Of a stretch of 64,000 nt of DNA, positions 11,102 through 35,047 are shown in pieces. Each line of letters begins with the position of its first letter. The stretch's first letter is position 1. The notes beneath the pieces are model-generated. The model was not told the DNA's origin, did no database searches, and saw only the letters and a list, made by a program, of their open reading frames with translations. The position numbers and the translations under genes were made by a program. The DNA comes from a virus: positions 1-64,000 of IMG/VR virus record IMGVR_UViG_3300041405_000133; one strand, 5' to 3'.

Positions 11102-11114
11102 TGGCATAAGCCGA

Positions 11115-11163: not shown

Positions 11164-11188
11164 GTGTAACCACCCTAGCAGTGAGTTA

Positions 11189-11599: not shown

Positions 11600-11669
11600 G
11601 GGAACCACCAGATGTCGTGTGAAGTGCATGACGGCCTAAGGCCATCATTAATCTACATTAACTCCCTGT

Positions 11670-13183: not shown

Positions 13184-13192
13184 AGCTGTCCC

Positions 13193-14167: not shown

Positions 14168-14182
14168 TTATCACCTCAGGCC

Positions 14183-14692: not shown

Positions 14693-14710
14693 GGGATTAT
14701 CCGTTAGGTC

Positions 14711-15670
14711 TTAAGATGTCCGAGTGTATTCAACCAAGATGGCGCCACAGTAAGCCAACGAGTTGTTAGCAAACGTCACTGGGAAGGAAGCCTTAGCCCC
14801 TACCGCAATAGTAGGCATCGCAGTTGGTTTAATATCAGTCGCTGCAATCACACATCCCATTTGCGCTGAAAGTAACGCAGCGAGTTGTGTCATGTTAGCG
14901 TAGCCTGGTCCACCGAACTTAACAGGGCGTCTGAAGGTCAATGGCCACGATCTGCGACCGTAGTAGACCGTTAGTGCCCCGATGTATGGAACGCCGTTGA
15001 ACGTCAACAGGAGCGCGGTGTTGTCACCGGCATCCTGAGGTCCATTCTCAGATACCTGAGAGATGGTAAACATGTTCGATTGGATCGGCTCTGCCAACGA
15101 GGCAGCATTCATCAAGTTCAGGTGCGTAGCAATCTGATTCTTGATATTAAGGCTAATGAACGCATCGGTGTGAGACAACGTCAGCGTATTAACCAGAATG
15201 CGGCCAGCGATCTCAAGACCCAGACGGGCAATCACGCAATCAATTTCACCTACCCATCGATACGAGTCGGCGGCTGAGATTACTGCGACTGTACCTAACT
15301 GATCGTAGCTGTCTTCAACGAAGTCAGTTTCACCGATTGGAATCCTGTACGGCCAGAAGAGATTACCCATCAAGTCTTTTGGAGTCGATGGTATCTCAGC
15401 CGCTACAGATAGATTCACCCCAGACAAGAAAGCTGGCAGGCTAAGCCGTTGGTATTCGAATGTGAACGTACCCACTCGATCCCACAGACTAACCGGAGCC
15501 TTACTCTTGTCGATCGACACCTTAACGCTGGTATTGACACCGCCAAGCGATACAGGTGCTTCTATCTTCAGATGTGTGGCTTTGAGGGGAGCTTTTAACT
15601 TCTCCCCAATTTGAGCCCTCAACGCATCGAGTGGATGCATCTTCAAGAGTGTTTCTGGTGCAATGCTCAT
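14711..15670 (-). CDS. Virion structural protein with shared domain plus C-terminal beta domain
   Basis: 319 aa; SD AAGGAT before ATG 15670. The N-terminal ~170 residues contain the domain shared with the two genes downstream (FEYQRLSLPAFLSG ... SYRWVGEIDCVI). The C-terminal ~150 residues are a separate beta-rich region (TALLLTFNGVPYIGALTVYYGRRSWPLTF, ANNSLAYCGAILVEYTRTS). No enzyme motif. It lies between the 742-aa protein and the smaller paralog, 10 and 18 bases apart, in one transcription unit. Likely a baseplate or tail-end protein. Confidence 0.6.
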   Translation of the reverse strand: MSIAPETLLKMHPLDALRAQIGEKLKAPLKATHLKIEAPVSLGGVNTSVKVSIDKSKAPVSLWDRVGTFTFEYQRLSLPAFLSGVNLSVAAEIPSTPKDLMGNLFWPYRIPIGETDFVEDSYDQLGTVAVISAADSYRWVGEIDCVIARLGLEIAGRILVNTLTLSHTDAFISLNIKNQIATHLNLMNAASLAEPIQSNMFTISQVSENGPQDAGDNTALLLTFNGVPYIGALTVYYGRRSWPLTFRRPVKFGGPGYANMTQLAALLSAQMGCVIAATDIKPTAMPTIAVGAKASFPVTFANNSLAYCGAILVEYTRTS

Positions 15671-15680
15671 GAGTGCATCC

Positions 15681-17909: not shown

Positions 17910-17941
17910 GACTTACCCCGATCTTAGTAGGAGAGGATTAA

Positions 17942-20800: not shown

Positions 20801-20806
20801 GTGATT

Positions 20807-20841
20807 GGGGTGGACAGGATCTTAATGGTCCTGTCCACCCC
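20807..20841 (+). terminator. Terminator after the portal-like gene
   Basis: A 13-bp perfect stem (GGGGTGGACAGGA, 20807-20819, with its complement at 20829-20841) and a nine-base loop, followed by GCTTTATG. It ends the portal transcript 6 bases after the stop codon. Confidence 0.85.
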
Positions 20842-20909
20842 GCTTTATGCTGCGTGTTAATTATTCACTATCACACTTGCTTTTATGTTAAAGAGCTTTC
20901 TTCCTTATT

Positions 20910-21003
20910 CTAGAGAAGACGTAGTAACCTAGACTAGAAGTCTAGGGGACGAAGTCGACGATGGACTAACGTGAAGGAGTCGTAGACGACTGAACCTCTC
21001 TAG
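20910..21003 (+). ncRNA. Structured intergenic RNA element (candidate)
   Basis: The 304-base gap between 20800 and 21105 holds no credible gene but a multi-stem element. The closing stem is CTAGAGA (20910-20916) with TCTCTAG (20997-21003). Hairpin one is CCTAGACT (928-935) with AGTCTAGG (939-946). Hairpin two is AGTCG (978-982) with CGACT (987-991). A weaker AGTC/GACT pairing (953-956, 964-967) lies between. AGTCG also occurs at 953-957, so an alternative pairing with 987-991 is possible. It is followed by a G-rich tract and CTTTTTG (21029). It lacks tRNA features. A 5' leader element or small RNA are both possible; orientation is assumed from flanking genes. Confidence 0.4.
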
Positions 21004-21104
21004 TTCTTTACTAGGGAAGGGGAGGGGGCTTTTTGCTGTATAGTCAAATTTACTTGGGTGATACATTACAAATCCGATAAGCAATCCCCCGAGGAAACAA
21101 CATC

Positions 21105-21731
21105 ATGATCAGTGGCACGATGAGATTCGCCGTAGGCTGCGTAGTTGCTGCTGGTGGCCTCTTGGTGACTTACAAAGCAGGTATGGACCTGTACGAGAAG
21201 CATCAGCAGAACAAAGAGATCCGCGCCTACAAAGAGGCGCTCAGAATCCACAACAGCTATTACGAGGAAGAATACAAACTACCATTAGCAGACTACATGG
21301 AACGGCTGGCTGTACCGTTTCGGTACGTCCATCGCTTTCCGTACGTTAAATGCACAAAGCCCGAGAAGTACGAAATCCTGATGTGTCCTTTCGGGGTACT
21401 CATCAATCATGACGTAGCGCTGATGCTAGCGTGCGCTATGGCGCGTAAGCAGTTCCAGTACGACTACCCTAAGGTTCTTGGCGGGGGTCCTCTGGTGTGG
21501 TCTGTAGCGCAGACGCGTTATGTCACGCAAGACAATCTGGAAAGCGGAATGAGAGACCTGTTCCACGCCGAGTATACGGCTGAGCAGTATCTCGAACAAT
21601 GCTTGCACTTCCGCAAGCAGATGAAAGAACACAAGGGAGAACCAATCGTTCTCTTCGTCCAGAAACAATCCAAAATCATTCGCCACTTACTCAATGATGA
21701 TTCATTCGAACCCGGCGAAGACATGCTCTAA
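21105..21731 (+). CDS. Membrane-anchored hypothetical protein, 208 aa
   Basis: ATG 21105 is preceded by GAGGAA. The N-terminus has one transmembrane helix (FAVGCVVAAGGLLVTYKAG, about 7-25) followed by a charged helix (DLYEKHQQNKEIRAYKEALRI) and a soluble domain with several Cys and aromatic residues (FPYVKCTKPEKYEILMCPFGVL, FLHYLEQCLHFRK-like helices). An N-in single-pass protein with a large C-terminal domain is the simplest topology. It is followed 12 bases later by the 124-aa gene with a strong ribosome site, so the two are likely co-expressed. Function unknown. Confidence 0.6.
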   Translation: MISGTMRFAVGCVVAAGGLLVTYKAGMDLYEKHQQNKEIRAYKEALRIHNSYYEEEYKLPLADYMERLAVPFRYVHRFPYVKCTKPEKYEILMCPFGVLINHDVALMLACAMARKQFQYDYPKVLGGGPLVWSVAQTRYVTQDNLESGMRDLFHAEYTAEQYLEQCLHFRKQMKEHKGEPIVLFVQKQSKIIRHLLNDDSFEPGEDML

Positions 21732-21743
21732 AGGAGAGTAGCA

Positions 21744-22118
21744 ATGCCTGAAGTTAAAGCAACACTCAGTCCAGAAGTGGAACGTTTCCACAATAACCTC
21801 GAGTTCACCCTCGAATGCATCACCACTCCTGAAACAGTAAAGAAGATCCTCGACGATCTGGCTGCGAAGGGCTACCATCTGGAACTGTGGCAGAAGATGG
21901 CGCATCCTCCCAGGCTTCCCGGTGACTTTGACTTCAACGAAACCTACGAACCTGAGCGAGGCGCTCCGGATGCAGACGAAGGCATCTACGCTAACCTGGG
22001 TTATTACATCGCACGATACACCGGTCTGAGCGTCCGTGCTGATCAGGTAGCATACCTGATGGGTCAGATGCGTGAAGAGCTTCAGTACGAGTTCTTCTAC
22101 CGTCCAGTAACCGCCTAA
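21744..22118 (+). CDS. Hypothetical protein, 124 aa
   Basis: Strong SD AAGGAGAG precedes ATG 21744. A small acidic, soluble protein with a helical first third (VERFHNNLEFTLECI, VKKILDDLAAKGYHLELWQKMA) and an acidic middle (DFDFNETYEPERGAPDADEG). It is last in its transcript, ending beside the 22126 terminator and convergent with the endolysin gene. No family recognised. Confidence 0.65.
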   Translation: MPEVKATLSPEVERFHNNLEFTLECITTPETVKKILDDLAAKGYHLELWQKMAHPPRLPGDFDFNETYEPERGAPDADEGIYANLGYYIARYTGLSVRADQVAYLMGQMREELQYEFFYRPVTA

Positions 22119-22125
22119 CGGCATA

Positions 22126-22169
22126 CAGAGCGTGGGGCAACCCACGCTCTGCTTACTTCTTTTTTTTTG
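22126..22169. terminator. Terminator at convergent junction before the endolysin
   Basis: An 11-bp stem (CAGAGCGTGGG / CCCACGCTCTG) with a GCAA loop, then a T-run at about 22160-22168. Sequence and layout are nearly the same as the terminator at 416. Confidence 0.9.
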
Positions 22170-22174
22170 TCTGA

Positions 22175-22855
22175 TTACGCCGCTTTGACGTACTTCGACT
22201 GTGCGCCTTTGGCCATCTTGTTGTTGACCTTGTGCAGACACTCTTGACGCAGGATGATACCGTCGTTGTTCACGTCCAGACCTTTGTTAGGAACGAACTG
22301 AGCATCGCCGGTTTTCCACATGACGTACGAGTCTGGCTTACCAACAGCTACTGGCCAGATGATCGCCATGTACAGATCGCCGAGATTAGAAATCTTCTTG
22401 GCGTACGGCTTGAAGTGCAGGTAGACGTATTCCAACTGCTCGACCTGAGACATCTTCGCCAAAGCTTCGACGGTAGTGCCCAGACCGATAGCAGTAGCCT
22501 TCATGAACTGGATGAGACCAGTCGCCGAAGATACAGGACTACGGGTACTGGCCTTGAACTCCTCACCGGTTTCCCACGCCATGCAAGACATGAAGTCCTG
22601 AATCATGACAGGCGGGAGGTTGAGACGTTTGATGATCTCAGCCAGCTTGGTGAGTTCGGCTTGAGTGAACTTCGTACCCCAGAGGATCTTGTTCACACCG
22701 AATGGACGCGAGGCATCGACGGTACTTGCCTTCAGTGCGTCAAGCGCACCTTGAGACCTGTTACCCCAGATACCATCAGCGATTCCACATGGGAACCCAG
22801 CGGCATTCAGATAGCCCTGGGTCTCCATGATTACTTCTTTCAGAGTTTGTGCCAC
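22175..22855 (-). CDS. Endolysin: peptidoglycan-binding plus SLT lytic transglycosylase
   Basis: 226 aa. The start is GTG at 22855 with SD AAGGAG 7 bases upstream. Residues 1-45 look like a PG_binding_1 domain (TQGYLNAAGFPCGIADGIWGNRSQGALDALK). From ~80 an SLT-type lytic transglycosylase/lysozyme-like domain follows, with the probable catalytic glutamate in MAWETGEEF (Glu95, or 98/99) and the family motif ATGLIQFM (111-118). An N-terminal cell-wall-binding domain is the arrangement of phiKZ gp144 and EL gp188, typical of giant Pseudomonas phages. It degrades host peptidoglycan at lysis. There is no signal peptide, so release needs a holin or similar. It is the last gene of the fibre block, 11 bases after the 207-aa gene. 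Confidence 0.85.
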   Translation of the reverse strand: MAQTLKEVIMETQGYLNAAGFPCGIADGIWGNRSQGALDALKASTVDASRPFGVNKILWGTKFTQAELTKLAEIIKRLNLPPVMIQDFMSCMAWETGEEFKASTRSPVSSATGLIQFMKATAIGLGTTVEALAKMSQVEQLEYVYLHFKPYAKKISNLGDLYMAIIWPVAVGKPDSYVMWKTGDAQFVPNKGLDVNNDGIILRQECLHKVNNKMAKGAQSKYVKAA

Positions 22856-22866
22856 GAGGCTTCTCC

Positions 22867-23490
22867 TTAAATGGTTTTGAGATGAGACAATGCAACTTGC
22901 ACTGCGTCAAACTCACCAGTCGGAAGGATGACAAGGTCAACATGCTGTTGGACCGTATCGCGGGTGTAATCGATACCGAGGTTCTGAGACGTGAGGCTCA
23001 GAGGCTGGCCAGCGACTGCGTTGAACGTCATGGTCAATTCCACAGCGTCCAATCCAGCCCACTTGGCCATGGTTTCGACGAACACCTTGCTTTGAGCCAA
23101 GATGTTTGCTTTCTCAACAGTACCGAGCATCTCAGCCCCTGCTTCCGCGTAATGCGTGTAGTAGGAGTTAACTGCCCAGTATTCTGCCATGATCGGCGTC
23201 GCTACAAGTCCACGGGTAAACGTGTCGAACCACTTAGTACCGTTGGGAGCATCCAGAAGCGTCCCAGCTGCGTACTGCGCGGCGGTTTCTGGCTTACTCG
23301 AGTAAGTCATCACCTGATACTCCAACACGCCCACAGAAGCTCTAGGGCCGTTACAGACCCAGCGTGCTGCGTGGATGCGAGCGTATTGAGCCAGCCCAGG
23401 CGCTCGGTACAGAAACAGCCCACGATCCAGCCCGGCGTACGGGTTAGTCGATTGGACATTGGTAGGAAGTTCTGGTACTGGCTGTGTCAT
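22867..23490 (-). CDS. Tail-fibre-region hypothetical protein, 207 aa
   Basis: ATG 23490 with SD AAAGGAAA. A soluble protein with no shared fibre module visible, containing helices with Ala/Tyr (AQYARIHAARWV, MAEYWAVNSYYTHYAEAGAEML) and a strand-rich end. It sits between the second fibre cassette and the endolysin. It could be a fibre-associated chaperone, a baseplate part or unrelated. No catalytic motif seen. Confidence 0.6.
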   Translation of the reverse strand: MTQPVPELPTNVQSTNPYAGLDRGLFLYRAPGLAQYARIHAARWVCNGPRASVGVLEYQVMTYSSKPETAAQYAAGTLLDAPNGTKWFDTFTRGLVATPIMAEYWAVNSYYTHYAEAGAEMLGTVEKANILAQSKVFVETMAKWAGLDAVELTMTFNAVAGQPLSLTSQNLGIDYTRDTVQQHVDLVILPTGEFDAVQVALSHLKTI

Positions 23491-23513
23491 CTAATCGTTT
23501 CCTTAAAGGATCA

Positions 23514-24251
23514 TTATAGAGGGTTCCACGACGATGGAAGCTTGACGAGGTTGTCGTAGTCGCCGAGTGTGGCAGGAATTGCAGAACCAATCGGGCTATG
23601 GCTGACGCGGAATGTGTCAATCCGCAGACAGTTAGCAAACGACATCGAAACGATACCAGCAGGACCAGTGGTGATCCTGCCGATGTACATTACCGATACC
23701 GATTCAGGTGGAGAGTCAGCCCGACACTGATAAGTAACGATACCGAACGTCGAACGAACGTAAACGTAAAACGTCTTGTTCGCTGGCGCTGGATCGATAG
23801 CCAGTAGGTTGATTGACGTCGGTTGAAGAACGTAGGGTGTTCCGGACAAGATCGTGTTCATCACACGGTTGCACGATGCCACCCATCCGTTAAACGTCCA
23901 CGACGCATTCACCTGCGGATCAGTCAACTCATCCACCCAACCGTAACTGGAGACAGGGACGATCGAGATCGGAACCTTCTGCCCCAATTTGTTGTTGATG
24001 GTGTTAGCTGTATACGAGCCGATGGTATCCATAGACTCGTTGTGCGGATTGTTTCTTAACGCCTTGTGTGCCGCCAGCGCATCGCGCGCCGGCTTCAACA
24101 GACCTAACCAATCAAACGTACCGATCAGATCAGCGTCATCCGCTTCAAGAGCCAATGCGCGCTTACGAGCGAGCAGACGTTTAATCTGCTCATCGTAGTG
24201 CCTGAAGTACTTACTGACCAGGAGATACCCGGCCGTAATAGGACCTGCCAT
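23514..24251 (-). CDS. Tail-fibre module protein (cassette 2, type C)
   Basis: 245 aa starting MAGPITAG at ATG 24251, which has SD AAGGAGGT; a TTG 24 bases upstream is inferior. It has a helical N-terminal element (RKRALALEADDADLIGTFDWLG), a RNNPHN motif typical of tail fibres, and a C-terminal ~125-residue module (KTFYVYVRSTFGIVTY ... MYIGRITTGPAG ... RIDTFRVSHSPIGSAIPATLGDYDN) shared with the proteins at 28618 and 29350 and with the C-termini of the two ~970-aa fibres. Probably a short fibre or fibre tip; last gene of the second cassette. Confidence 0.7.
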   Translation of the reverse strand: MAGPITAGYLLVSKYFRHYDEQIKRLLARKRALALEADDADLIGTFDWLGLLKPARDALAAHKALRNNPHNESMDTIGSYTANTINNKLGQKVPISIVPVSSYGWVDELTDPQVNASWTFNGWVASCNRVMNTILSGTPYVLQPTSINLLAIDPAPANKTFYVYVRSTFGIVTYQCRADSPPESVSVMYIGRITTGPAGIVSMSFANCLRIDTFRVSHSPIGSAIPATLGDYDNLVKLPSSWNPL

Positions 24252-24262
24252 GGTGACCTCCT

Positions 24263-24943
24263 TTAAGTCGTCCAACCACTGTTGATGTTGGAAGGCGCAG
24301 CCTGAGTACCAGTAGATGCAGGGATAGCCAGACCACGAGGAACTTGAGTTACAGCAGCCTGACCTAGTCGAACAATCTGAACCATCGCCGGCGTATAAAC
24401 ACCACCAGCATAGTTCACAGCGCCGAAGATGATCTTGTTCAAGCTCTCAGTCACGTTGGTTGTAACTGCAACCGAAGCTACGCGGTTAGGCGCAAGTCCA
24501 GTGACGTTAACCACCACGTACTGCCTGGCGGCTGTACTCAAGGTGAGGTTAGCAGCCGCTACGTTGACCTTACGACCTTGGAAGATCATGGTAAAGGCAG
24601 GGACGTTCAACATCCCTGCGCCTACCGTTACTGCTACCAAAGGAACCTTACTTACAGGTACTGCATCCTTTGGATAGTAGTTGACCTTCTGAAGATCGAA
24701 CTGAGTCTTCGACATGCCACCCAACAGAGCGAGAGTATCGCCGTGGGCGTTGACCGTGTCTTCGTGAGTCTTGACTTCCCCACGGATGATGGCAACAAGA
24801 TCCGCAAGCGAATACCCATTGATACGATCCGAGTTGTACGCACGAACGGCGAACTGAGCGGCTCGGTCGATGAGGCGTTTTACTTCCTCCTTCCACAACC
24901 CGAACTTGGTCTCTAAGTTCTGCCGGATCTCTTCTTCCGTCAT
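24263..24943 (-). CDS. Tail-fibre module protein (cassette 2, divergent type C)
   Basis: 226 aa; SD GGAGAT before ATG 24943. It shows the same plan as other type-C proteins: N-terminal helix ending RAAQFAVRAYNSDRINGYSLADL, a mid 'His-Gly' region, KVPLVAVTV, then a C-terminal module with QYVVVNVTGLAPNRVASVAV, IIFGAVNYAGGVY and the ending RGLAIPASTGTQ ... NSGW, equivalent to VGSAIPVTT ... LNPAW in the protein at 28618. It is the most divergent copy. Probably part of the fibre complex with the 978-aa protein, 3 bases upstream. Confidence 0.65.
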   Translation of the reverse strand: MTEEEIRQNLETKFGLWKEEVKRLIDRAAQFAVRAYNSDRINGYSLADLVAIIRGEVKTHEDTVNAHGDTLALLGGMSKTQFDLQKVNYYPKDAVPVSKVPLVAVTVGAGMLNVPAFTMIFQGRKVNVAAANLTLSTAARQYVVVNVTGLAPNRVASVAVTTNVTESLNKIIFGAVNYAGGVYTPAMVQIVRLGQAAVTQVPRGLAIPASTGTQAAPSNINSGWTT

Positions 24944-24945
24944 GT

Positions 24946-27882
24946 TTATCTCCAGTTCAGGCGGCCAGGTGTGTTAGGCGTACCGGACGTGAGTGGGATA
25001 CCAGAACCTTGCGATGCACGAGCAAGAACCATTCCACCGATAGCCACCCGCTTCGCAGTGATAACTGCGTTGAGACCAGCGTTCGTAGTGGTGAAGTAAC
25101 CTAGGTACAGAGAAGCCTCGGCAACCGGAGTCGCTGTAGAGCCATCAACGATCTTGTACGACAACACACCAGCGATCTTCACGATCCAGACGTGATACGT
25201 CTTGTTGATGTCCACCCCAGGCGTTAGCTCGTAGGTAGTCTGTCCAATCGACTGATAGACGCCATCCAACATAGCCGGCGCATCATCAGAGAAGTAAACA
25301 GTCCACGCACTCACCGTTTTCTGGGATACGATCACGATCGAGTTGTTGATGTTCGCAATCTGTGCATCGTAATACTGGTTGAGTCCCTGAGACGGCGGCG
25401 CGGATGTAGCCACCAATGTCCCAATCATCTTCGTACCGCAGTCAATCTGACCACGAATAAATTCGGATGATTTCGTGAAGTACAATCCACGGTTAGGGAA
25501 GTTCAAGAATCCGCAAGGTGCGACATGAACGTAGTTCCAGAAGGGATCACCGATGAACGACCAAACACCACCAGTCCATGTGGCGAGAATCATCAGCTGC
25601 TCACGGTCACCTGAAACCAGGTTAACTACCGGTGGCGTCAGGCCGAGTGTATAACCGTTACTGGTTGGACGAATTACAGTTTGACCAGCCTCAGCCCAAT
25701 AATCCAAGGAAATGGAATTACTAGCCCCGTAGACACTATTCACTTGCGCAAATGTACCCGTCTGAAGACTGGCAGCGGTAACGTTTTGACGACTACCTGC
25801 GATGTCCACGCTATAAAGGAACATGCGTGTGACACGATCGCTACCGATATACAGCCCGCTGACGAATGGTGGTAAGCCACCGTATAGCTGAGGTACGATC
25901 AACTCGAACAGCAGGTTCTCAGCGGTGTTCGGTCCGTAGTACAGACCGATACCTCGCGCAGCCAGATTGTTGATGATCTGCTGTTTGAGACTGTTCATCA
26001 CCGCTGGCGATGTTTGCACAGTACCTGAGCTATTCATGTTGGTATCGATGTTGTACGCCCGAACCAACGGCCCATCTCGGCTGGTAAAACGCGCCTGACT
26101 AACGAAGAAGCCACCTGGACCCGATTCATTAAGCAACTGGATGGCATTACCTTCAGCAATACCCAGAGTGTTCAACTGATATCGGTTCTTCGTAGGCGAG
26201 AATCCACGATAGGCGTATGCGGCAGTAACTGACGAGTATTGGTAGTCTGGATTACCTTCCAATACAGATCTAACTCCCCAGCGACCGTATTGGTTAGCTG
26301 AATTCCGCGCGTTGTTCACGCAACTGACCACGTAATCGCCGATGTTGGAGTGAGCTGCAAATGACTCAGTCAAACCGCTACCATACCGACCAGTGAGGTT
26401 AGTGCCGAGGGTTTTAGGTCCCCAGAGTGTGCGAGCATCAAAGATGGTGAACGGGTCAGCGTTCTGAGGATAATCGATACGGTACAGAGTCCGCGATGTG
26501 TAATACGTGGATGTCTGGTGAGTCCACATCTGGTTGAACTTCGTGGTATATATCGATGCTGCCGATTGACCGCCCAGCGTAGACAAGAAAATACCAGACG
26601 TAGCCAGCGGGGCAGCGGGGCTATCGTTGAACGTGAATACGGCGCCATTGTAGTTGATCACAGCCTTTTGGTTGTAATAACGAGCAACGTCAATAACCTT
26701 GTTGTCAGGGATCAGGAAGTTGAAAACGTAGTTCCGACCAACCTCTGAGGTCGCGCCATCCACAGCGTAGAACTGCTGATAGAACTGCTGGAAAACGTTG
26801 ACACGCCCGTCTTCACGAACCATTACCTGTCTACCACAACTCGCGTTAACGAGTGAGTGCATCCCAGCTGGGCTACCAGTCATGACGAACGGAGTTTGAC
26901 CGCTATCGAACAACTGGATGTCATCGCTACCAATAACACCGCCCGATCCACGGTTAATGGTCCAACCAGTTACACGTTCGAATCCACCCAACGAACCTGA
27001 GATCAGATTAGCGACAGGGCATCGCCAAACTCGATAACCGATCTTATTTTCAGCGAAGAGATCGATCAGGAAGTAAGCCCAACCGCCTTTGATGTAACCC
27101 ATAGGCACGCCGAACTGAGCAGGACCGGCGCCGGTATGTTCCATGTAGCTCCGAAGAACTACGTTGAAGAGATAACCTTCAGGAATGAAGAAGCCGGTAT
27201 GTTTCGTGTGGTCCATCGTGTTGTTTGTAAGCGACACGAAGTATCCGTTACGAGCTCCGTCAGACTTGTTACACATCACGCCGATGATGAGATCTTGACT
27301 ACCGTGAAGGATCGCCATTGCTCTCAAGCTGGCTGGGAAATAGGCCGGCTCGTATCGGGTGTTGGACATGATGATTTTAGTGAGGTCCGTCTCTGTCTGC
27401 GCGTTGCGGATGTAACCGTAGTAAACCCCTTTGGAGTCACCGTCAGTACCTGTCCGCAACATCATCAGAGTGCCGTTGTCCTCCATCATCATCGCCACGG
27501 TACTCCAAGGAGTCAGGTTAGAACCCGACTCAAAGGAACCAGTGATGTTCGGTGGAAGGAATTCACGGTCACCGTAGAAAGACATTGGAACGCCAGAGTC
27601 CGCATCCAAGATGAGGTCGAGGCTGGCGTCGAATTCTTCCTTGTTGTAACTGCCAAGACTGTTCGGAACATCCTTGTGGATATTCTGACCTTTCTTGTCG
27701 GTGTGTGCAGTTACTTCAGCAAGCAATTGTGCCTGAACTTGGGCAGCTGTTTTGTTTTCCAGCTTGTCGGCGTAATCAGCATGCTGGGTACGATCAGCTG
27801 GCCGTGCCAGCGCAGCCATGAGTTCAGTTTTGAATTCCCTGAACCCAGCAGCAACAGCAGCAAGGGCTGTAGTCTTCGACAT
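24946..27882 (-). CDS. Large tail fibre protein (cassette 2, type B, 978 aa)
   Basis: SD AGGAG before ATG 27882. Residues 1-60 are a helical attachment segment (REFKTELMAALARPADRTQHADYADKLENKT). A long receptor-domain region follows, beginning FLPPNITGSFESGSNLTPWSTVAMMMEDNGTL, with repeated Gly/Thr/Ser beta-rich sequence, and the C-terminal ~125 residues are the shared module (DINKTYHVWIVKIAGVLSY ... LYLGYFTTTNAGLNA ... GSGIPLTSGTPN). It is a full-length paralog of the 967-aa protein at 30071: same length, same block order, e.g. AMMFEDDGTLVYLR against AMMMEDNGTLMMLR, and SLTNNTMDHTKHTG against ALTNGTMDDSKHTG. By position and architecture it is a trimeric fibre that binds host surface polymers; no hydrolase motif seen. 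Confidence 0.75.
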   Translation of the reverse strand: MSKTTALAAVAAGFREFKTELMAALARPADRTQHADYADKLENKTAAQVQAQLLAEVTAHTDKKGQNIHKDVPNSLGSYNKEEFDASLDLILDADSGVPMSFYGDREFLPPNITGSFESGSNLTPWSTVAMMMEDNGTLMMLRTGTDGDSKGVYYGYIRNAQTETDLTKIIMSNTRYEPAYFPASLRAMAILHGSQDLIIGVMCNKSDGARNGYFVSLTNNTMDHTKHTGFFIPEGYLFNVVLRSYMEHTGAGPAQFGVPMGYIKGGWAYFLIDLFAENKIGYRVWRCPVANLISGSLGGFERVTGWTINRGSGGVIGSDDIQLFDSGQTPFVMTGSPAGMHSLVNASCGRQVMVREDGRVNVFQQFYQQFYAVDGATSEVGRNYVFNFLIPDNKVIDVARYYNQKAVINYNGAVFTFNDSPAAPLATSGIFLSTLGGQSAASIYTTKFNQMWTHQTSTYYTSRTLYRIDYPQNADPFTIFDARTLWGPKTLGTNLTGRYGSGLTESFAAHSNIGDYVVSCVNNARNSANQYGRWGVRSVLEGNPDYQYSSVTAAYAYRGFSPTKNRYQLNTLGIAEGNAIQLLNESGPGGFFVSQARFTSRDGPLVRAYNIDTNMNSSGTVQTSPAVMNSLKQQIINNLAARGIGLYYGPNTAENLLFELIVPQLYGGLPPFVSGLYIGSDRVTRMFLYSVDIAGSRQNVTAASLQTGTFAQVNSVYGASNSISLDYWAEAGQTVIRPTSNGYTLGLTPPVVNLVSGDREQLMILATWTGGVWSFIGDPFWNYVHVAPCGFLNFPNRGLYFTKSSEFIRGQIDCGTKMIGTLVATSAPPSQGLNQYYDAQIANINNSIVIVSQKTVSAWTVYFSDDAPAMLDGVYQSIGQTTYELTPGVDINKTYHVWIVKIAGVLSYKIVDGSTATPVAEASLYLGYFTTTNAGLNAVITAKRVAIGGMVLARASQGSGIPLTSGTPNTPGRLNWR

Positions 27883-27909
27883 CGTAGAAACTCCTGGATG
27901 CGCTTTGGT

Positions 27910-28551
27910 TTAAAGTAACGCCAGTTCGCCAGCGGCTGTTTCGAAGCAGAGAGCGAGCTTCATGCAGAAGTCATCGATCGAATCGAACTTCTTGCCGACC
28001 TGGGTCAGAAGCAGTTGACGAGATGCCAGATCACCGTCGCGGATAGCCGCAGCGATATCAGCATTGGACTCGACAACGTACTTCATGCCGTACAGATCGT
28101 AGGCGCTGTGTAAGTGCGGTGCAGGAACGAACTGAGAAGGAACCCCGATAAGGTCACCCCACGCCACTGGGCGGTTATCATTCTGCAACGCCTCGATGGC
28201 TTGTTTGAGTGCATAGGTAGAGAATGAAAATTCACCACCTACGTACTGGCACGTCAGAAGGATGTTGGTACTGACATCTGGATTAACGATCTGCACTGCC
28301 GAGTAGACAGCTTGGCCGGCGGCGTTAGACGCTTCCCGGTAGTAGTGAACCAGGTTGTAGTCATCGACTGCATCCAGCTCACGACCGTTAGCCGCATCCT
28401 TGATGATGACGTTACCGCCGAAGAATGGACCGTAGTCAGCAACGAAGATCCGACCTTTCACCGATCCAATCGAGTGCGCCTCATCGATCACTTTGTTATC
28501 AGGACTTGTCCCGAAAAGGTCGAGAGGATATTTGAAGATAGTGTTAGCCAT
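27910..28551 (-). CDS. Fibre-proximal baseplate/fibre protein (cassette 2, type A, 213 aa)
   Basis: The protein starts MANTIFKYPLDLFG; GGGGTT precedes ATG 28551. It is a paralog of the 241-aa protein at 32991: YPLD-x-GTSPDNKVIDEAHS aligns with YPLD-ETGAALTNKVINEKRT, then YGPFFGGNVIIKDAANGREL with AGPFFRDTMVLKHTPTGRTL, then a matching YxSxxxxN/DxxxSxxL strand and a Gly-Gly-Phe/Trp segment. Each type-A gene immediately precedes a large fibre, suggesting it links the fibre to the tail or baseplate. Function inferred from position and duplication. Confidence 0.65.
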   Translation of the reverse strand: MANTIFKYPLDLFGTSPDNKVIDEAHSIGSVKGRIFVADYGPFFGGNVIIKDAANGRELDAVDDYNLVHYYREASNAAGQAVYSAVQIVNPDVSTNILLTCQYVGGEFSFSTYALKQAIEALQNDNRPVAWGDLIGVPSQFVPAPHLHSAYDLYGMKYVVESNADIAAAIRDGDLASRQLLLTQVGKKFDSIDDFCMKLALCFETAAGELALL

Positions 28552-28617
28552 TTCAGCATAACCCCGAAAGAAGAGGATTGGAGATTACTAGCCGTCTGAG
28601 TACAAAGGATTTGCGAC

Positions 28618-29337
28618 TTACGAAATCCACGCAGGATTAAGTTGAGCCAACAAGTCAGGCGTGCTGGTAGTAACAGGGATTGCAGAACCTACAGGCGTTG
28701 CAGAGACACGGTACGTATCGATGCGAGTAACCCGTTGGATAGCGAAGGAAGAGATCCCTGCGGCGCCAGTGACGACCTTACCGATGTACATCCTACCGCT
28801 TGTCTCGGCAAATGCATCTGGCGACACCAGATACTTGATTACAGACCCATCGAACCGCAGATAAACGAAGAACGTTTTGTTCGCCGCATTCGGTACGAGT
28901 GCGTTGAGGTCGATGTTGATAATCGGAGCTGGTAAATCGTACCCAGCCATCATCGATGGAACTTGAGCCGTGAAGGACAGAACCCATCCAGAAAACGAGA
29001 TGGGTAGAGCCGATCCAGCGAAATCACCATACCGGCTGATAGGCAGCGATCCACGAGGGATAGCGATACCCAACACTGCATTAACCGTTGCGTTATCCAC
29101 GCCATCAAGACTATCAGCGGTGATTCCGTGCGGGTTATTCCTATCAGCAGCGTGCGTTGTACCAATAGCTGTGCCGGCGTCAATGAGTGTGGTTGCTGTA
29201 TCCGTTCCGATTAGTTTGGAGTTGTCGGCCAAACCAGCGGTATCCGGCTTCCTACTTAATGCCGCTAAGACTTTTACACGAAGCGCATCAAATGCATCGT
29301 GCATTATCTGAATTAGCTGGGAATTATCTTCAGCCAT
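28618..29337 (-). CDS. Tail-fibre module protein (cassette 1, type C, 239 aa)
   Basis: SD GGAG before ATG 29337. It contains the N-terminal helix (LAALSRKPDTAGLADNSKLIG), the fibre motif RNNPHG, LPISRYGDFAG, and the C-terminal module (KTFFVYLRFDGSVIKYL ... MYIGKVVTGAAGI ... RIDTYRVSATPVGSAIPVTTSTPD). It is followed after a 66-base gap by the type-A gene of the second cassette. It could be a short fibre tip, or an assembly partner of the large fibre; no catalytic residues seen. Confidence 0.7.
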   Translation of the reverse strand: MAEDNSQLIQIMHDAFDALRVKVLAALSRKPDTAGLADNSKLIGTDTATTLIDAGTAIGTTHAADRNNPHGITADSLDGVDNATVNAVLGIAIPRGSLPISRYGDFAGSALPISFSGWVLSFTAQVPSMMAGYDLPAPIINIDLNALVPNAANKTFFVYLRFDGSVIKYLVSPDAFAETSGRMYIGKVVTGAAGISSFAIQRVTRIDTYRVSATPVGSAIPVTTSTPDLLAQLNPAWIS

Positions 29338-29349
29338 GAGTTACTCCGA

Positions 29350-30066
29350 TTAACTTAACCAATCGTTACCGATGTGGTCGTTAAAGACCGGCAGGTCAGC
29401 AGTGCTAGGAATCGCCCCACCAACAGCATCTTTGGAGATACGGTAATGATCAAGCTTAGTCACTGCGGTCAGGTTAACTGCTGTAAACGTGTTAGCGTTG
29501 GTCGTTACAGTACCAATGAAGAAGCGAGTCCACGTTTCAATTAGCGTTGTTTCAGACACCGTGTACTGGGCAACGCCGCCGACAATTTCGACGTACACCT
29601 TGTACGTCTTGTTAGCAGGGTCACCGAACAGCGCTACGAAGTCGAGCGATTGCGCAGGGAGGCTGTAATACGTACCCCACATGAGCAAAGGGTTCTCTGT
29701 CAGGAAGTTCAGAACGAACTGAACGTAACCAGTCAAGACGATAGTCCCACCGAGATCACCAAACTGAGAGACGGGAAGAATACCTTGAACCAATTTCTCA
29801 GCCGCTGTTGCATTCACAGCCGCAGGTGTTGGTGCATCCAGAATAACTGGGGTTAACCCATGTGGATTGTTCGTCAACAGAGCGTGAGCTGAGATAGACG
29901 AATCGATTTGAGTTTTCATACTCGACGGAATCACCCCATTGAGCGCGGTACTGTCGTCAGCAGTACCGGCCGTTGGAGCTTTCCGGGTCAAGATGCGAGT
30001 GATTTGGTTGGTGAACGATGTCACCTTCGTCTTCAGCTCTTCAATCTTTTCCAGAAGCGTTGACAT
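29350..30066 (-). CDS. Tail-fibre module protein (cassette 1, type C, 238 aa)
   Basis: SD GGAGCT before ATG 30066. Layout as its neighbour: coiled helix (EKIEELKTKVTSFTNQITRILTRKAPTAGTADDSTALNG), LTNNPHG, ILPVSQFGDLGG, then the ~125-residue module (KTYKVYVEIVGGVAQY ... FFIGTVTTNANTF ... KLDHYRISKDAVGGAIPSTADLPV). It shares every block with the 239-aa protein downstream, 12 bases away, so the two look like a tandem duplication within the first cassette. Confidence 0.7.
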   Translation of the reverse strand: MSTLLEKIEELKTKVTSFTNQITRILTRKAPTAGTADDSTALNGVIPSSMKTQIDSSISAHALLTNNPHGLTPVILDAPTPAAVNATAAEKLVQGILPVSQFGDLGGTIVLTGYVQFVLNFLTENPLLMWGTYYSLPAQSLDFVALFGDPANKTYKVYVEIVGGVAQYTVSETTLIETWTRFFIGTVTTNANTFTAVNLTAVTKLDHYRISKDAVGGAIPSTADLPVFNDHIGNDWLS

Positions 30067-30070
30067 TTGA

Positions 30071-32974
30071 TCAGCTCCATTCCAAGGTGTCTGGGGATGA
30101 AGGCAAGCCGTTACTCACAGGAATCGACGAACCCTTCGCTTCAGTGTTGAGGCGGAAGGTGCCAATGCGAGTGACTTTATCTGTAACGATCGAAGTGATC
30201 TTCACGTCGTTCGTAGTGATAGTACCCAGGTACATCGTACCGATACCCTCTGGAGAAGGACCAGCTTCAATCGCGTACGAGCAGCTATCACCTGACTGCT
30301 TCAGATAAATGTAGAACGTCTTATTCTTCAAGGTTCCTTCCGCAGTAAACAGAAGGGACAAGTCGATGCTTTGCACCGGCATCACGAAGTACTTCCCACC
30401 AATCACAACAGGCACAGGTTCAGAGAAGTAAACGATCCATCCTTGCGCCACTTCTTGGGAAGCGAGAACTGTACGCTGCTCAATAGGTGGTACTGTCGCC
30501 TTAACCCAAGCATCGAACTCAGCTTCAGTTTTAGCGATTGGTAGGAATACCAATTTAGTCGCATCGTCAGAGATACCTGATTCAGCCAACGTAGACCAGC
30601 TATAACCAAACCCTAAGTCAGGTGAAGCGACGAAGTTGCGGGTGTTGGTATAATGGTTGAAGAGAACGTTGTTGAACACGTTAGCGCTGACAAACAACCC
30701 GGTTGACTTCTTGTACTTGAACGCAATGCTGGACAGAGCGGCAGAGCCTGGTACGTTTACGTTCCAGACGTTCGATGCACCAATGAGGAAAGCATCAGCC
30801 ACTTCGTAGATGCAGCAGGCGCCAGCGTTATTCGAGTTAACCGAAGAATATCCAATACTCGCAGCAGTGCTTGTGTACAATATCCCAGGAGCGAGTATCG
30901 CGCCAATGCTGGCAATTGCAATCACGTTACCTGCACCATCAGCAGACAGGTTAACCTGGGCTACAGTGATGCCGTGCTTCTTGTCAGTTGTCATGAAACT
31001 ACACATGACGAACGGTGGACATGTGGTGGCAGTCGGGATTACCAGATCGACTTTGATCGTATCGACGCTATAGCCAAGACCTGTCAGTTGTGAACTGAGC
31101 ATGCCTTCGAGCGAGGTCATCAAAGCAGCGCTGATGGCGACTGTAGGACCTACCGCCAACTCTGGACTGATACTAGACGCACCCGTCAGCTTAACGCCAC
31201 TGATGAACCGCTTACCAGATACGGTAATGACCCCACCCGATGAGACCTCCTGCACCAAACAAACATAGTTCGATTCAGTCAACCCGTCGTCAGCTACATA
31301 TTTCCGAACAGTCGACGGTTTATAGCCAGTCATATCTGACAGATATAGCGACGAGTAATTGTAGGTCGGAGATCCTTCCAATTGGGTATACGCTACACCA
31401 CGTTTCCAATTACCGGCCGCGTCAACACCATCTGACCACAGAAGTAGTTTAGTTGGAGAAACGAGAACAGGGGTTACCAAGTTACCGCCGATTGGCGAAC
31501 CGTATTGAGCCCGGTTAGTCACAGCAGCAACGATAGTGGTTTCTGCAACCAGACACTTAAGCGCATTGAACTTATTCGTCCAACCAGTGACTTTACCGTA
31601 ACTAATACCGACGCCATCTACGGTGTTCTGATTTGAGATCCGCGCCACGTTACCGGAGTCATCGAACGCGTATTGCGATTGCTGAGCGCCTGGTGAAGAC
31701 ATGGCATCGAGAGTCTGACCATCAAATACCGGACCGCTGTAGATATCAGCTGTAACCGTTGTAGATGTAGCGGTGTTCTGAACGTCGAACCCAGGGTCGA
31801 GCTGAGCCACCTTCGTTACTGGATTGTACGTCCAGCTAAACGTCATTGTCTTATACGCCGCGCCAGTCACGACGTAACGAGACTGAGACCAGACCTTAGT
31901 GCGAATAGTTCCATCAGGACCCACAGCCGATGCAAGCGCTGGAACACCGTAGTACATCGCGTTGACCGAGCTGAATGTACCGCTATTGAGAACCATCGGC
32001 TTGTCAGCAGGGACAGTACTCATGAGTTTATCGCAGAACCGCATCGTACTCCTGTTAGAGTACAGTACGTTTCCGAAACCAGTTGTGGTGATATCGGTCA
32101 CTGGAGTCACATCCAGTTCGCCACCGTTTGCTGCAACTACGTCAGCCAGAGGAACCGTAGAGACGTCGACTTCCCATGGATTAGCGCCGGAGCTAACGTT
32201 CGTTAGTCCGTAGTAGATGACGAGATCCCCAGCGACAAAACACTCACCAGTACCACCACCCATCGCCGCGAACGTGGCTTGAGTTACGATACCGCCAGTA
32301 TGCTTACTGTCGTCCATGGTGCCGTTGGTCAACGCTAGGAAATAATCACCTGCAACACCATCGGCATCTTGAAGCTGGCCGAAAACAACAGTGCTCGAGC
32401 ACGAGAATACGGTCTGTGCAGTCATCCCAACTGGAAAGAAGGAAGGATGATACCGTTTGTTTGTCTTCGTCGGTTGTTGGTTTGGTTTACTGGTAGCCCC
32501 TGCAACGTAAGCGTAGAACACACCACGTACAGAACCGTTGGTTGCGTTACGCAGATAAACTAGCGTGCCGTCATCTTCGAACATCATCGCAGCGGTTTTT
32601 GGGTTGAATGTGGTTGTACCAGATTCGAACGTACCCAAGATACCTGTCGGCAGATAGTTGTTACTACCGAACCGAGAGATGGGGCAGATGCCAGATGGAA
32701 GCAGCGGTGCTTGAACAGCAGTCCACTGATCCTTACTGAGGATACCTACCGACGCCGCGCTATCGTTGTGAGCAGCTTTACCGGTCAACCCAACGTGCGA
32801 GTTCACTGCACCGCGAATGAACGCGGTGAGTGCCGTTAACGCCATCCCGCCAACCTTGAGAGTATTGTCGGCCAGTACAGCGAACTTACGTTTGTTTTTG
32901 ACGATATCGGCCGTCAGGCTGTACAGTCGATTCATCGCCGCTTTGTTCTCGGCGATCTTCTCGCTTAAACTCAT
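30071..32974 (-). CDS. Large tail fibre protein (cassette 1, type B, 967 aa)
   Basis: SD AAGGAT before ATG 32974. N-terminal helix (SEKIAENKAAMNRLYSLTADIVKNKRKFAVLADNTLKVGG), an AHNDSAASVGILSKDQW segment, a large central beta-rich domain, and the same ~125-residue C-terminal module (KTFYIYLKQSGDSCSYAI ... MYLGTITTNDVKIT ... RIGTFRLNTEAKGSSIPVSNGL). It is a paralog of the 978-aa fibre. The two have diverged through the mid-region, as expected for receptor-binding parts under selection. It follows the type-A gene at 32991 by 16 bases. Confidence 0.75.
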   Translation of the reverse strand: MSLSEKIAENKAAMNRLYSLTADIVKNKRKFAVLADNTLKVGGMALTALTAFIRGAVNSHVGLTGKAAHNDSAASVGILSKDQWTAVQAPLLPSGICPISRFGSNNYLPTGILGTFESGTTTFNPKTAAMMFEDDGTLVYLRNATNGSVRGVFYAYVAGATSKPNQQPTKTNKRYHPSFFPVGMTAQTVFSCSSTVVFGQLQDADGVAGDYFLALTNGTMDDSKHTGGIVTQATFAAMGGGTGECFVAGDLVIYYGLTNVSSGANPWEVDVSTVPLADVVAANGGELDVTPVTDITTTGFGNVLYSNRSTMRFCDKLMSTVPADKPMVLNSGTFSSVNAMYYGVPALASAVGPDGTIRTKVWSQSRYVVTGAAYKTMTFSWTYNPVTKVAQLDPGFDVQNTATSTTVTADIYSGPVFDGQTLDAMSSPGAQQSQYAFDDSGNVARISNQNTVDGVGISYGKVTGWTNKFNALKCLVAETTIVAAVTNRAQYGSPIGGNLVTPVLVSPTKLLLWSDGVDAAGNWKRGVAYTQLEGSPTYNYSSLYLSDMTGYKPSTVRKYVADDGLTESNYVCLVQEVSSGGVITVSGKRFISGVKLTGASSISPELAVGPTVAISAALMTSLEGMLSSQLTGLGYSVDTIKVDLVIPTATTCPPFVMCSFMTTDKKHGITVAQVNLSADGAGNVIAIASIGAILAPGILYTSTAASIGYSSVNSNNAGACCIYEVADAFLIGASNVWNVNVPGSAALSSIAFKYKKSTGLFVSANVFNNVLFNHYTNTRNFVASPDLGFGYSWSTLAESGISDDATKLVFLPIAKTEAEFDAWVKATVPPIEQRTVLASQEVAQGWIVYFSEPVPVVIGGKYFVMPVQSIDLSLLFTAEGTLKNKTFYIYLKQSGDSCSYAIEAGPSPEGIGTMYLGTITTNDVKITSIVTDKVTRIGTFRLNTEAKGSSIPVSNGLPSSPDTLEWS

Positions 32975-32990
32975 GGGATGGCATCCTTGG

Positions 32991-33716
32991 TTAAATGTTG
33001 GACAGTTGATCGGCTGCGGTGTTGTAAGAGTCAGTCATCGAAACAACCAAGTTCTCAACGTCATCAGCAGATACACCGAAGCCCAATGCTTCAAGACGTG
33101 CGTCGATCTCGTCTGCTGTGTAGAACTCAGACATAAGGATCGGCGGATTCTGCAACCAATCGTTAGTACGTTCACGAATCGCAGATGCGATATCGTAGTT
33201 CGACGCGATCAGTTCAGCCATACCGGTCAAGTCATCTGCCGGGTGGTTGTGCTCGGTCGGTGGATAGACTTCTGGTTTATCACTAACTTCATCGAAGGTG
33301 ACAAAGCGTGGGTCGGCAATCTTGTTCGACATGATCTCGAGGATCTTGTTCTCAGGAAGAGTCCAGTTACCACCAAGGGTCTGGTAGGTCTGAACGAGCT
33401 CGCCGGAGAGAGTCAAGTCGAAAAGCAGGATACTGGCGTAGACGCCGCCAAGCTTATTCTGCAACTCGTAACTCGCAGCATTAAAGCGGTGACCAGGCGC
33501 CCAGTCCGTCCCACGGATCAGAGTCCGACCAGTAGGAGTATGTTTGAGAACCATGGTGTCACGGAAGAACGGACCAGCCCACGGAAGGATGAAGTGGAAC
33601 TCCAATTCTTCTTGCGGAGGTTGTAGTGTGCGCTTCTCGTTGATGACCTTGTTCGTTAGAGCAGCGCCCGTTTCATCCAATGGGTAAAGATATTGCGTGA
33701 CGTCATCGGTAGCCAT
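32991..33716 (-). CDS. Fibre-proximal protein (cassette 1, type A, 241 aa)
   Basis: SD GGGGAC before ATG 33716. It begins MATDDVTQYLYPLDETG and continues with PWAGPFFRDTMVLKHTPTGRTLIRG, then TLSGELVQTYQTLGGNW, a HNHPADDL segment and a helical C-terminus ending TAADQLSNI. It is a paralog of the 213-aa gene at 27910, and is the first gene of the minus-strand fibre block, divergent from the gene at 33797. It is likely the base or adaptor for the 967-aa fibre; this is inferred. Confidence 0.65.
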   Translation of the reverse strand: MATDDVTQYLYPLDETGAALTNKVINEKRTLQPPQEELEFHFILPWAGPFFRDTMVLKHTPTGRTLIRGTDWAPGHRFNAASYELQNKLGGVYASILLFDLTLSGELVQTYQTLGGNWTLPENKILEIMSNKIADPRFVTFDEVSDKPEVYPPTEHNHPADDLTGMAELIASNYDIASAIRERTNDWLQNPPILMSEFYTADEIDARLEALGFGVSADDVENLVVSMTDSYNTAADQLSNI

Positions 33717-33796
33717 TTACTGGTCCCCATTAAAATATGAGCCTCAACGGTTTATCGAGGTAATGAACATATGATTTTTTACTTGAGGTGTTTTAT

Positions 33797-35047
33797 ATGT
33801 ATACCTGCGTAAAAGCACTCATTCGCCAACGAGGCGATAATCAGAGATTGACTGAAGCGCAGGTAGGCGATGCGGCAGTTCGTACTCTGATGGCTGAGAA
33901 CAGTACGGTCTATTTGATCCTGACACATCCGACCATTAATCATCAGGTCGGCTTGGATCTGGATACGATTGAAGATGTCATCTACCGTATTGCTGATGGC
34001 ATTACTGTGGATCAGTGGCTTCAGTCGAGAGGCGATGAAACGCTGCCAACGTCGGACACCTTGATGAAGGTAGAAGCTGCTTCGTGCGGTTACAATGACC
34101 TCTTTGCGGCTGGCTACAAGATCCAACTCCAACACCCAACTGCGGGTGAAGGTACACAACTGCCTGATAGCGAACTTACAGACATTCTGGTAACGAAGTC
34201 TGACTTCGATTACAAGATGTTGTTTGACTACGGCCTTGCCACGGTCAATGGTCTTCTCCACATCACCGATTACTCGACTCGTGGTTGGAAGATCAAAGAA
34301 GGTGGCCGTTCGACTCAGTTTGCCAAGCGTCACGATCTGGGTCTGATCAGCTTCAAGAACGTCGGTAAGTTGACATGTATTCCGATCAAACCTGAGATGG
34401 TCCTGCCTTATGGTGGCCTTCCGATGAAGAACGGTTTCATCATCAACACTCCTGGCGTTGATCTGACCAACAAAGTCGTCATGTTGTCTGTCGGCGGTTA
34501 CCTCCACTTTGCCAATGAATGTTACACCGTCATTGGTGATCGTTCGATTAAGTTCGACTGGTGGAAATACCCGCTGGAACACCGCTACTACAATTCCAAC
34601 AAACTCATCAACATGAAAGCGTTCCTCGATACGATGGTACGCAACGAAGACCATGGCGATGCGCTGGACTTGAATCAAGCGAACAGCGACGCGTCCATCA
34701 CGGCGTACATGTCTTTACCGCAGTCGTTCATCATCCTGCTGGATGCTAAGAACTTCTACTACGAGCGACATGCTCTGGAACGCACCGGTCTGCCTGGTCG
34801 CTACTACAGCTACGAACTGCCGAAGTTCCCAATGCAGCTCGAGAACGGTTTGCTTCCGGCTTACGTGGCGATGCCTGAGTCGGGTATGTACTCCCTCGCA
34901 ATCTACGAGAACCTGATTCGTAACTTCCAGCATGACACGAAGAAGCCTGCCGACGACATGTACTTCAACGGCGCTCGGAAATCTTCCAACCTCGGCCATT
35001 ACGCTTCTGCGTATCTGCTCGAGATGGGGACTGAGTTCCTGACTTAG
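33797..35047 (+). CDS. Virion structural protein, 416 aa
   Basis: ATG 33797 is 6 bases after SD GAGGTG (33785-33790); a GTG nine bases earlier overlaps that site. 416 aa. N-terminal charged region (KALIRQRGDNQRLTEAQVGDAAV), then mixed alpha/beta with recurrent aromatic strand motifs (IIINTPGVDL, SVGGYLHFANECYTVIG, FFYERHALERTGLPGRYYSYELP). No catalytic or membrane motif. It lies opposite the fibre block and convergent with the spike genes, suggesting a baseplate or tail component. Exact role not recognised. Confidence 0.6.
   Translation: MYTCVKALIRQRGDNQRLTEAQVGDAAVRTLMAENSTVYLILTHPTINHQVGLDLDTIEDVIYRIADGITVDQWLQSRGDETLPTSDTLMKVEAASCGYNDLFAAGYKIQLQHPTAGEGTQLPDSELTDILVTKSDFDYKMLFDYGLATVNGLLHITDYSTRGWKIKEGGRSTQFAKRHDLGLISFKNVGKLTCIPIKPEMVLPYGGLPMKNGFIINTPGVDLTNKVVMLSVGGYLHFANECYTVIGDRSIKFDWWKYPLEHRYYNSNKLINMKAFLDTMVRNEDHGDALDLNQANSDASITAYMSLPQSFIILLDAKNFYYERHALERTGLPGRYYSYELPKFPMQLENGLLPAYVAMPESGMYSLAIYENLIRNFQHDTKKPADDMYFNGARKSSNLGHYASAYLLEMGTEFLT

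Follow-up and report, generated by a model that had tools for sequence, protein, structure and literature searches.

Exchange of modules behind fibre anchors is a known feature of phages, as are tandem fibre genes, and the T-even gp37–gp38 fibre tip carries an exchangeable adhesin that is paired with a cognate fibre end. Here we describe a fibre locus in a window of 64,000 nucleotides (positions 1 to 64,000 of IMG/VR virus record IMGVR_UViG_3300041405_000133, which has 129,947 bases), in which the gene order A-B-C-C occurs twice on the minus strand (Table 1). We consider it probable that this is a two-slot plug-and-socket fibre locus of a phiKZ-type jumbo phage, in which the A proteins are fixed anchors and the genes behind them are exchanged modules. 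Its A proteins resemble the phiKZ gp131/gp133-135 family (PhiPA3 gp150 and gp152-154; phiKp24 gp357 and gp356; SPN3US gp168-170), with which they share a homologous N-terminal domain and a position beside a gp130 homologue. SPN3US gp168-170 are absent from a tailless mutant and, in the accessible part of that report, are candidates for baseplate or fibre proteins (PMC5694885). For phiKp24, the accessible part of the published account describes hyperbranched fibres in which many receptor-binding proteins are thought to dock on a primary fibre (PMC9700779).

The window fits a phiKZ-type jumbo phage, because it encodes a virion protein (17942-20800, phrog_3004) that is 34% identical to a protein of Pseudomonas phage DT01, with matches in 271 records of phages, among them relatives of phiKZ, because its record holds the phage polymerase family phrog_2943 and because A1 has a gp130-type neighbour. 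This neighbour matches the gene beside A1 in all six named phages compared (E values of 5e-27 to 3e-63), and the order gp130 homologue, A1, A2 holds in all six; in PhiPA3 a small gene separates A1 from A2. A contig of 253,921 bases has the same locus at about 99% identity; no near-identical DNA was present in the named phage collection.

The first-pass annotation had read the locus as a tandem duplication of a four-gene tail-fibre cassette. The places, lengths and order of its eight open reading frames are as described there, and the genes from A1 to Y lie 2–66 bases apart. We compared the proteins by all-against-all blastp. A1 and A2 are homologous (26% identity over 234 amino acids, 9e-21), and B1 and B2 are paralogous, with 34% identity over residues 35-232 (3e-30) and 26% over 518-966 (2e-27). 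Among the C proteins, C1b and C2b share 35% identity (7e-38), C1a and C1b 34% (1e-36), and C1a and C2b 26% (2e-22); C2a is distant (5e-5 to C2b and 2e-8 to the B1 N terminus). These similarities far exceed chance and, together with the repeated order, bear out the existence of two paralogous fibre-type sets. The C proteins match both ends of B (B1 24-104 and 844-966), within its first 104 and roughly last 125 residues. At the sequence level, C corresponds to B minus about 740 middle residues, so that B reads as N-M-T (N-terminal, middle and C-terminal domains) and C as N-T. The common C-terminal domain proposed earlier for B and C is real but looser than claimed: the motifs MYxGxITT and GSAIP are exact in C2b only, with FFIGTVTT/GGAIP in C1a, IIFGAVNY/GLAIP in C2a and further variants in C1b, B1 and B2. 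The T, N, M and A profiles used below were partly built from sequences that they later matched, and homology within the window is therefore stated from blastp.

To place the anchors, we built a tree of 59 A sequences with careful settings. It contains two deep classes, split at 100/100, with A1 in the first and A2 in the second. A1 shares the first class with the leading A gene in phiKp24, Moabite, LucasX and PhiPA3 (in the last, gp150, whose annotation notes similarity to phiKZ gp131). The second unites A2 with the later A genes of those phages, one in each and three in PhiPA3 (gp152-154); the PhiPA3 sequences form long branches. The classes also split in a tree in which ten sequences from the fused proteins of L069, L071 and L072 stood in place of ten from named phages. 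DT01 and FLC8, which are outside the tree, have the same pair of A genes. No match to M or T, and thus to B or C, was found in the scanned loci of phiKp24, Moabite, LucasX, PhiPA3, DT01 and FLC8, in which the A genes have longer distal parts of their own. A1 and A2 are ancient paralogues that are adjacent in phiKZ-type phages lacking B or C, and by the homology of its domain and its place in the first clade A1 is a phiKZ gp131-class tail protein.

We next used profiles to locate A, N, M, T, D and Y in 45 loci, some of which share a contig; near-identical or duplicate contigs (for example, L013, L017, L021, L026, L031, L035 and L070) were counted once. Both B-C-C sets occur in window order in eight contigs (L012, L014, L015, L029, L030, L032, L033 and L034), of which L014 begins inside B1 at the contig end and has no A1, the 28.8% identity in its A1 column being that of its A2. 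Seven others have A1 and set 2 only (L047, L050, L060, L062, L064, L065 and L068). Slot 1, the position behind A1, here holds X, a protein of about 597 amino acids (L047, L050 and L065), or a glycine-rich protein (L060 and L062), or is empty (L064, and L068, with an A1 of 460 amino acids). L092 and L093 have A1, A2, D and Y and neither B; an adhesin-like glycine-rich protein occupies slot 1 and X occupies slot 2. The order is A1-C-B-B with A2 later in L036 and L044, and A1-A2-C-B-B, that is, with C-B-B behind the A2-class gene, in L048 and L059. X belongs to phrog_11065, a family of virion structural proteins, and copies in slot 1 and slot 2 are 53–56% identical. Pfam PF05268 (Gp38 tail-fibre adhesin, cut-off 25) was matched by two of the four glycine-rich proteins submitted (L092, 39.7 bits; L060, 28.3 bits) and not by those of L062 and L036. 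The L093 protein, which was outside this test, is 53% identical to that of L092 over the first 120 residues; the adhesin-like label of L062 was given by eye. The two anchors act like two slots, which hold B-C-C, C-B-B, X, a Gp38-type adhesin, a radical S-adenosylmethionine (SAM) cluster or nothing.

To follow these contents, we built a backbone for 16 contigs from D, Y and the anchor domains of A1 and A2; on it, slot 1 needs at least five changes and slot 2 at least one. The backbone groups L030 with L047, L050 and L065, and L012, L015 and L064 with L032, L033 and L034. In approximately unbiased (AU) tests, the B2 tree rejects both groupings (p-AU of 2e-55 and 3e-7), the B1 tree rejects L012, L014 and L015 with L032, L033 and L034 (5e-7), and the backbone rejects L030 with L032, L033 and L034 (7e-21). 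The backbone also rejects a single clade of contigs with B-C-C in slot 1 (6e-10) and of those with an adhesin-like slot 1 (5e-4). Anchor and module trees conflict. Modules also diverge faster than anchors: identity to L034 is 67% for A1 and 74% for A2, and 36–55% for B and C.

The C-terminal ends of A bear on how cargo might be matched to an anchor. In A proteins before B-C-C, only 41–89 residues lie beyond the anchor domain, and these carry an end pattern of two small residues followed by ..L..L/I. It is present in all 21 such proteins (7 A1 and 14 A2), in none of 13 A proteins before other cargo and in 5 of 954 unrelated open reading frames. L014, L063, L048 and L059 were examined separately: the A2 of L014 and of L063 pass, and the anchors of L048 and L059 fail the literal pattern. 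A profile of the A1 ends before B-C-C matches the A2-class ends before C-B-B in L048 (2.5e-8) and L059 (3e-6) and the A1 ends of L036 (4e-5) and L044 (3e-4), thus all four C-B-B anchors; against the other A of these four contigs nothing was significant (best, 0.44). For X the relation is clear. The X-type profile, made from the A1 ends of L047, L050 and L065, finds the A2 ends of L092 (7e-26) and L093 (9e-23), as well as a separate 124-amino-acid gene directly before X in L036 (2e-20), and the profile of A1 ends before the adhesin (G type) finds the A2 end of L036 (1e-15). We then tried the X-type association on six further phages, chosen from 15 records listed out of the 79 that contain X. 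An X-type end lies beside X in five, and the gene carrying it is directly upstream in DT01, Noxifer, PS119XW and SCTP-2. In these phages the end of A goes with the type of cargo and not with the class of A, and we infer that the exchanged unit is probably the end of A plus its cargo.

Several observations concern single loci. The 124-amino-acid gene of L036 (12912-13286) sits between B and X and its N terminus resembles, by eye, that of B and C; possibly it serves as a converter through which X attaches to a fibre of the B-C type. In L030 (9167-9988), the A1 end is doubled in tandem, with two matches to the B-C-C end profile. L064 (8505-9164) encodes a short A1 of 219 amino acids without a module, either an orphan anchor or one that lost its module recently. 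Of the 79 records in the phage collection that contain X, 72 carry names of Pseudomonas phages, which hints at the hosts of the X-bearing relatives. The window and the near-identical L012 differ at 8 of the 967 residues of B1, 7 of these falling within 582-822; the A1 protein is unchanged, and so is the A2 protein, despite 11 base changes in A2.

We also obtained structure models. The AlphaFold2 model of A1 (predicted local distance difference test (pLDDT), 75) has helices at residues 201-210 and 217-240. Comparison by VIA-align gave moderate similarity to phage neck and fibre attachment domains (Z scores of 8.1 for a DT57C neck chain and 7.5 for a T5 portal-complex chain) and a Z of 6.8 to T7 gp17 (7boz_b; 2.2 Å over 67 residues); Foldseek gave nothing below 0.001 for A (best E value, 0.04). 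The B1 model (pLDDT, 82; predicted template modelling score, 0.75) has N-terminal helices and propeller-like repeats. Its VIA-align matches include a fucose lectin (1iub/1ofz; Z of 12.9, 4.1 Å over 241-243 residues), glycosidases and sialidases (10.6–12.8) and the phage K1F endosialidase (11.2), and for repeats a Z below about 13 may reflect a common arrangement alone. The best Foldseek match of B1 was to DDB1 (6e-6, template modelling score of about 0.2). By sequence, neither B nor C had a credible match to a solved structure, and the weak hits were to unrelated proteins.

From the fold of A and the tailless mutant of the relative, we infer that A is probably a tail anchor. It would carry a cargo-specific socket, and B and C would face the host. 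A1 and A2 would be old anchors whose N-terminal domains attach the fibre to the tail. Each would end in a socket specific for its cargo, with the helical type on both anchors of the window, and the helical N domains of B (and of C) would dock on it. The predicted beta-propeller in the middle of B may be turned to the host surface, where it would bind a glycan or cleave it. The T domain of B and C may cap, trimerize or bind, and the C proteins would be short B-like fibres without the propeller. The unit of socket, B, C and C would have come onto both anchors long ago and have since passed between phage lineages; X and the Gp38-type adhesin, as further modules, would have been placed on either anchor. 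It is plausible, as the first-pass annotation proposed, that the two fibre sets serve two receptors. More tentatively, with the balance slightly against it, this may be a general docking system of two anchors and a small socket code, in which each socket type accepts one class of cargo (B/C, X, Gp38 or a radical-SAM-modified protein).

A number of points weigh against an exchange of modules on fixed anchors. The argument draws on homology, slot contents, tree conflict and the co-occurrence of socket and cargo, and a monomer model proves no docking. Both the AU groupings and the end pattern were chosen post hoc, the former with the trees already in view and the latter from the ends themselves, and the literal pattern fits just one of the four anchors before C-B-B. 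The window-type sockets are short, and those of A1 and A2 are not significantly alike: the A1 profile reaches the A2 ends before B-C-C with a best E value of 0.04, and the A2-end profile reaches A1 ends with 0.002. There are shared flanks, as the G profile weakly matches A1 ends before B-C-C near the anchor (1e-4 to 0.01) and the A2 profile matches A2 ends before X over their first 16 residues (4e-5). In Psa21 the X-type end lies directly downstream of X, not upstream, and in HRDY3 X is present and the profile check found no X-type end. The independent contrasts number four plus one, with which a sign test cannot reach 0.05. Finally, L062 has an adhesin-like gene without a Gp38 match, and L064 retains its short A1 without a module.

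The earlier proposal, that the whole A-B-C-C cassette was recently duplicated in tandem in this lineage with the C-C pair of set 1 as the newest step, draws on the repeated order and the homology of every class, and we now regard it as very improbable. For A, the tree rules it out: A1 and A2 are not sisters within the lineage, and their split predates the sampled phiKZ-type phages. In a quick tree of 52 B sequences, B2 forms a clade of 15 and B1 a group of eight, which is joined at 99% to the second B of L036. Forcing B1 and B2 into an exclusive clade costs 16 log units, a borderline rejection (p-AU of 0.057) that leaves the proposal some room. The paralogues in the window are 22–35% identical, against 36–100% for orthologues in two-set relatives. 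For C, we relied on a quick tree of 53 sequences without B ends, as the ends in an 87-sequence tree formed long branches. Each of C1a, C1b, C2a and C2b forms a single clade across the genomes in which it occurs, and C1a and C1b are separate across the eight two-set contigs in the tree. All three pairings are allowed (C1a with C1b, p of 0.21; C1a with C2a, 0.449; C1b with C2b, 0.471), and the trees lend no support to C-C as the newest duplication. The relatives do not bear out a simple tandem copying of the cassette.

An ancient duplication of A-B-C-C before the phiKZ-type split, with repeated loss of B-C-C, is unlikely. A single clade of B1, L036 B and B2 costs only 1.4 log units (p of 0.405), the two cross-set C pairings are both allowed, and A, M and T are fused in distant relatives. 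However, both slots would have had to lose B-C-C in phiKp24, PhiPA3, LucasX, Moabite, DT01 and FLC8, whose A genes carry their own longer distal parts, and the module trees conflict with those of the anchors. We judge somewhat less likely still that A, B and C belong to the baseplate or are decoration proteins, and take no part in host binding. Pfam gave no match for ten window proteins, and the database relatives of B are mostly labelled hypothetical or structural, as such a role would allow. Yet a Gp38 tail-fibre adhesin replaces the module at the same place, modules outpace anchors in divergence, the propeller-like model matches lectins and glycosidases, including phage endosialidases, and PHROG families assign A to tail and C to tail-fibre proteins. 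Exchange of modules on two fixed anchors remains our preferred account.

Table 1. Features of the fibre locus and its flanks (aa, amino acids; HMM, hidden Markov model; AF2, AlphaFold2).
Feature	Position	Strand	Length	Assignment and evidence
A1 gene	32991-33716	-	241 aa	
A1 anchor domain, residues 1-186	33159-33716	-		phiKZ gp131-class N-terminal domain; HMM map, A tree, phrog_2163
A1 C-terminal helical end, residues 187-241	32994-33158	-		proposed B-C-C socket; end pattern, AF2 helices
B1	30071-32974	-	967 aa	N 1-104, predicted propeller-like middle 105-838, T 840-967; phrog_3573, E 1e-143
C1a	29350-30066	-	238 aa	N-T protein, B minus middle; blastp, HMM map
C1b	28618-29337	-	239 aa	N-T protein; blastp, HMM map
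A2 gene	27910-28551	-	213 aa	
A2 anchor domain, residues 1-172	28036-28551	-		second A class, shared with PhiPA3 gp152-154 (annotation: similarity to phiKZ gp133-135)
A2 C-terminal helical end, residues 173-213	27913-28035	-		proposed B-C-C socket
B2	24946-27882	-	978 aa	N-M-T, separate B lineage (15-row clade); phrog_3573, E 4e-77
C2a	24263-24943	-	226 aa	divergent N-T protein; blastp, HMM map
C2b	23514-24251	-	245 aa	N-T protein; start 24251 with AGGAGG upstream
D	22867-23490	-	207 aa	conserved, behind fibre genes; 16/16 backbone contigs
Y	22175-22855	-	226 aa	matches phrog_4928, phrog_196 (baseplate hub), weakly transglycosylase families; 15/16 backbone contigs
phiKZ gp130 homologue	33788-35047	+		phrog_3337; syntenic marker, far side of A1

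Beyond the fibre genes, D gave a weak tblastn match to the C2b region (5e-5) that blastp did not support (0.35). The window also encodes a 2,243-amino-acid protein (53926-60657) with matches to tail-fibre and transglycosylase PHROGs, and GC skew is negative across 54–60 kb.

Related radical-SAM clusters follow A2 in four loci: L098 (DT01, 2737-13627), L099 (FLC8, 10989-23830), L100 (on the L044 contig, 8412-19592) and L101 (7568-18217). They contain a cupin/JmjC-like protein, at least four proteins related to the annotated radical-SAM proteins of DT01, and 2-oxoglutarate-Fe(II) oxygenase-like proteins. All four also encode a protein of 178-190 amino acids with a C-terminal CHxxCHxxCHxxRGRR. 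A scan with this protein alone found no relatives; a two-row alignment found two loci, one of them new. The fibre-locus cluster looks like a peptide-maturation cluster, similar to those for ribosomally synthesized and post-translationally modified peptides. The many radical-SAM genes of such phages have already been published (PMC12390700, PMC8541153 and PMC11898562); the accessible parts of these papers, and the literature matches listed, make no mention of the Cys-His tail. The record from which the window comes, possibly a fragment, gave no radical-SAM match.

If our account is right, the sequence shows where fibre modules recombine in phiKZ-type phages: within the anchor gene, at the junction of the slot-specific plug with the socket for the cargo. 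In jumbo phages, this would provide a rule by which anchors and receptor-binding genes can be paired, and it would explain two fibre sets per genome that need not be equally old. If the docking code is also true, the family would shift hosts by moving socket and cargo together between phages and between its own two anchors, and recombination boundaries would fall inside the anchor gene. Repeated gene order by itself is poor evidence for the duplication of a cassette.

Among the literature matches listed, in which subscription papers are sparsely covered, there was no description of two paralogous anchors that share cargo through matched ends. The nearest systems each share part of the arrangement. 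PhiPA3 and phiKp24 have the two A classes of the window. Unlike in the gp131 family, A in the window is reduced to an anchor with a short end, and B and C, as genes of their own, encode the distal parts. SPN3US gp168, in contrast, unites A, M and T in one chain, and gp170 holds A and T; one-chain fusions of A with M-T or T also occur in Ea35-70, L053, L056 and L069-L072, and A, M and T therefore belong together. The middle and end of B resemble phrog_3573-type proteins that Mimasvirus and Asteriusvirus carry in tandem copies (CBB_147-149 and 121Q 499-501), the best of which, in the CBB/121Q group, is 28–29% identical over 90% of B1. CBB, XbC2 and 121Q have tandem M-T genes, and 121Q additionally has one T-only gene, like C in the window; a profile map found no N or A domain in the examined loci of these genera. 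Such tandem and fused genes indicate that tandem fibre-type paralogues are ordinary in jumbo phages, although their arrangement differs. In phiKp24, the accessible part of the report attributes docking to T4 gp10-like domains of depolymerases; unlike in the window, its own A genes have no B-C-C behind them. The T-even gp37–gp38 tip is comparable in that a Gp38-family protein is among the cargoes of the window's relatives, and it differs from a single locus in which two paralogous anchors carry several unrelated types of cargo.

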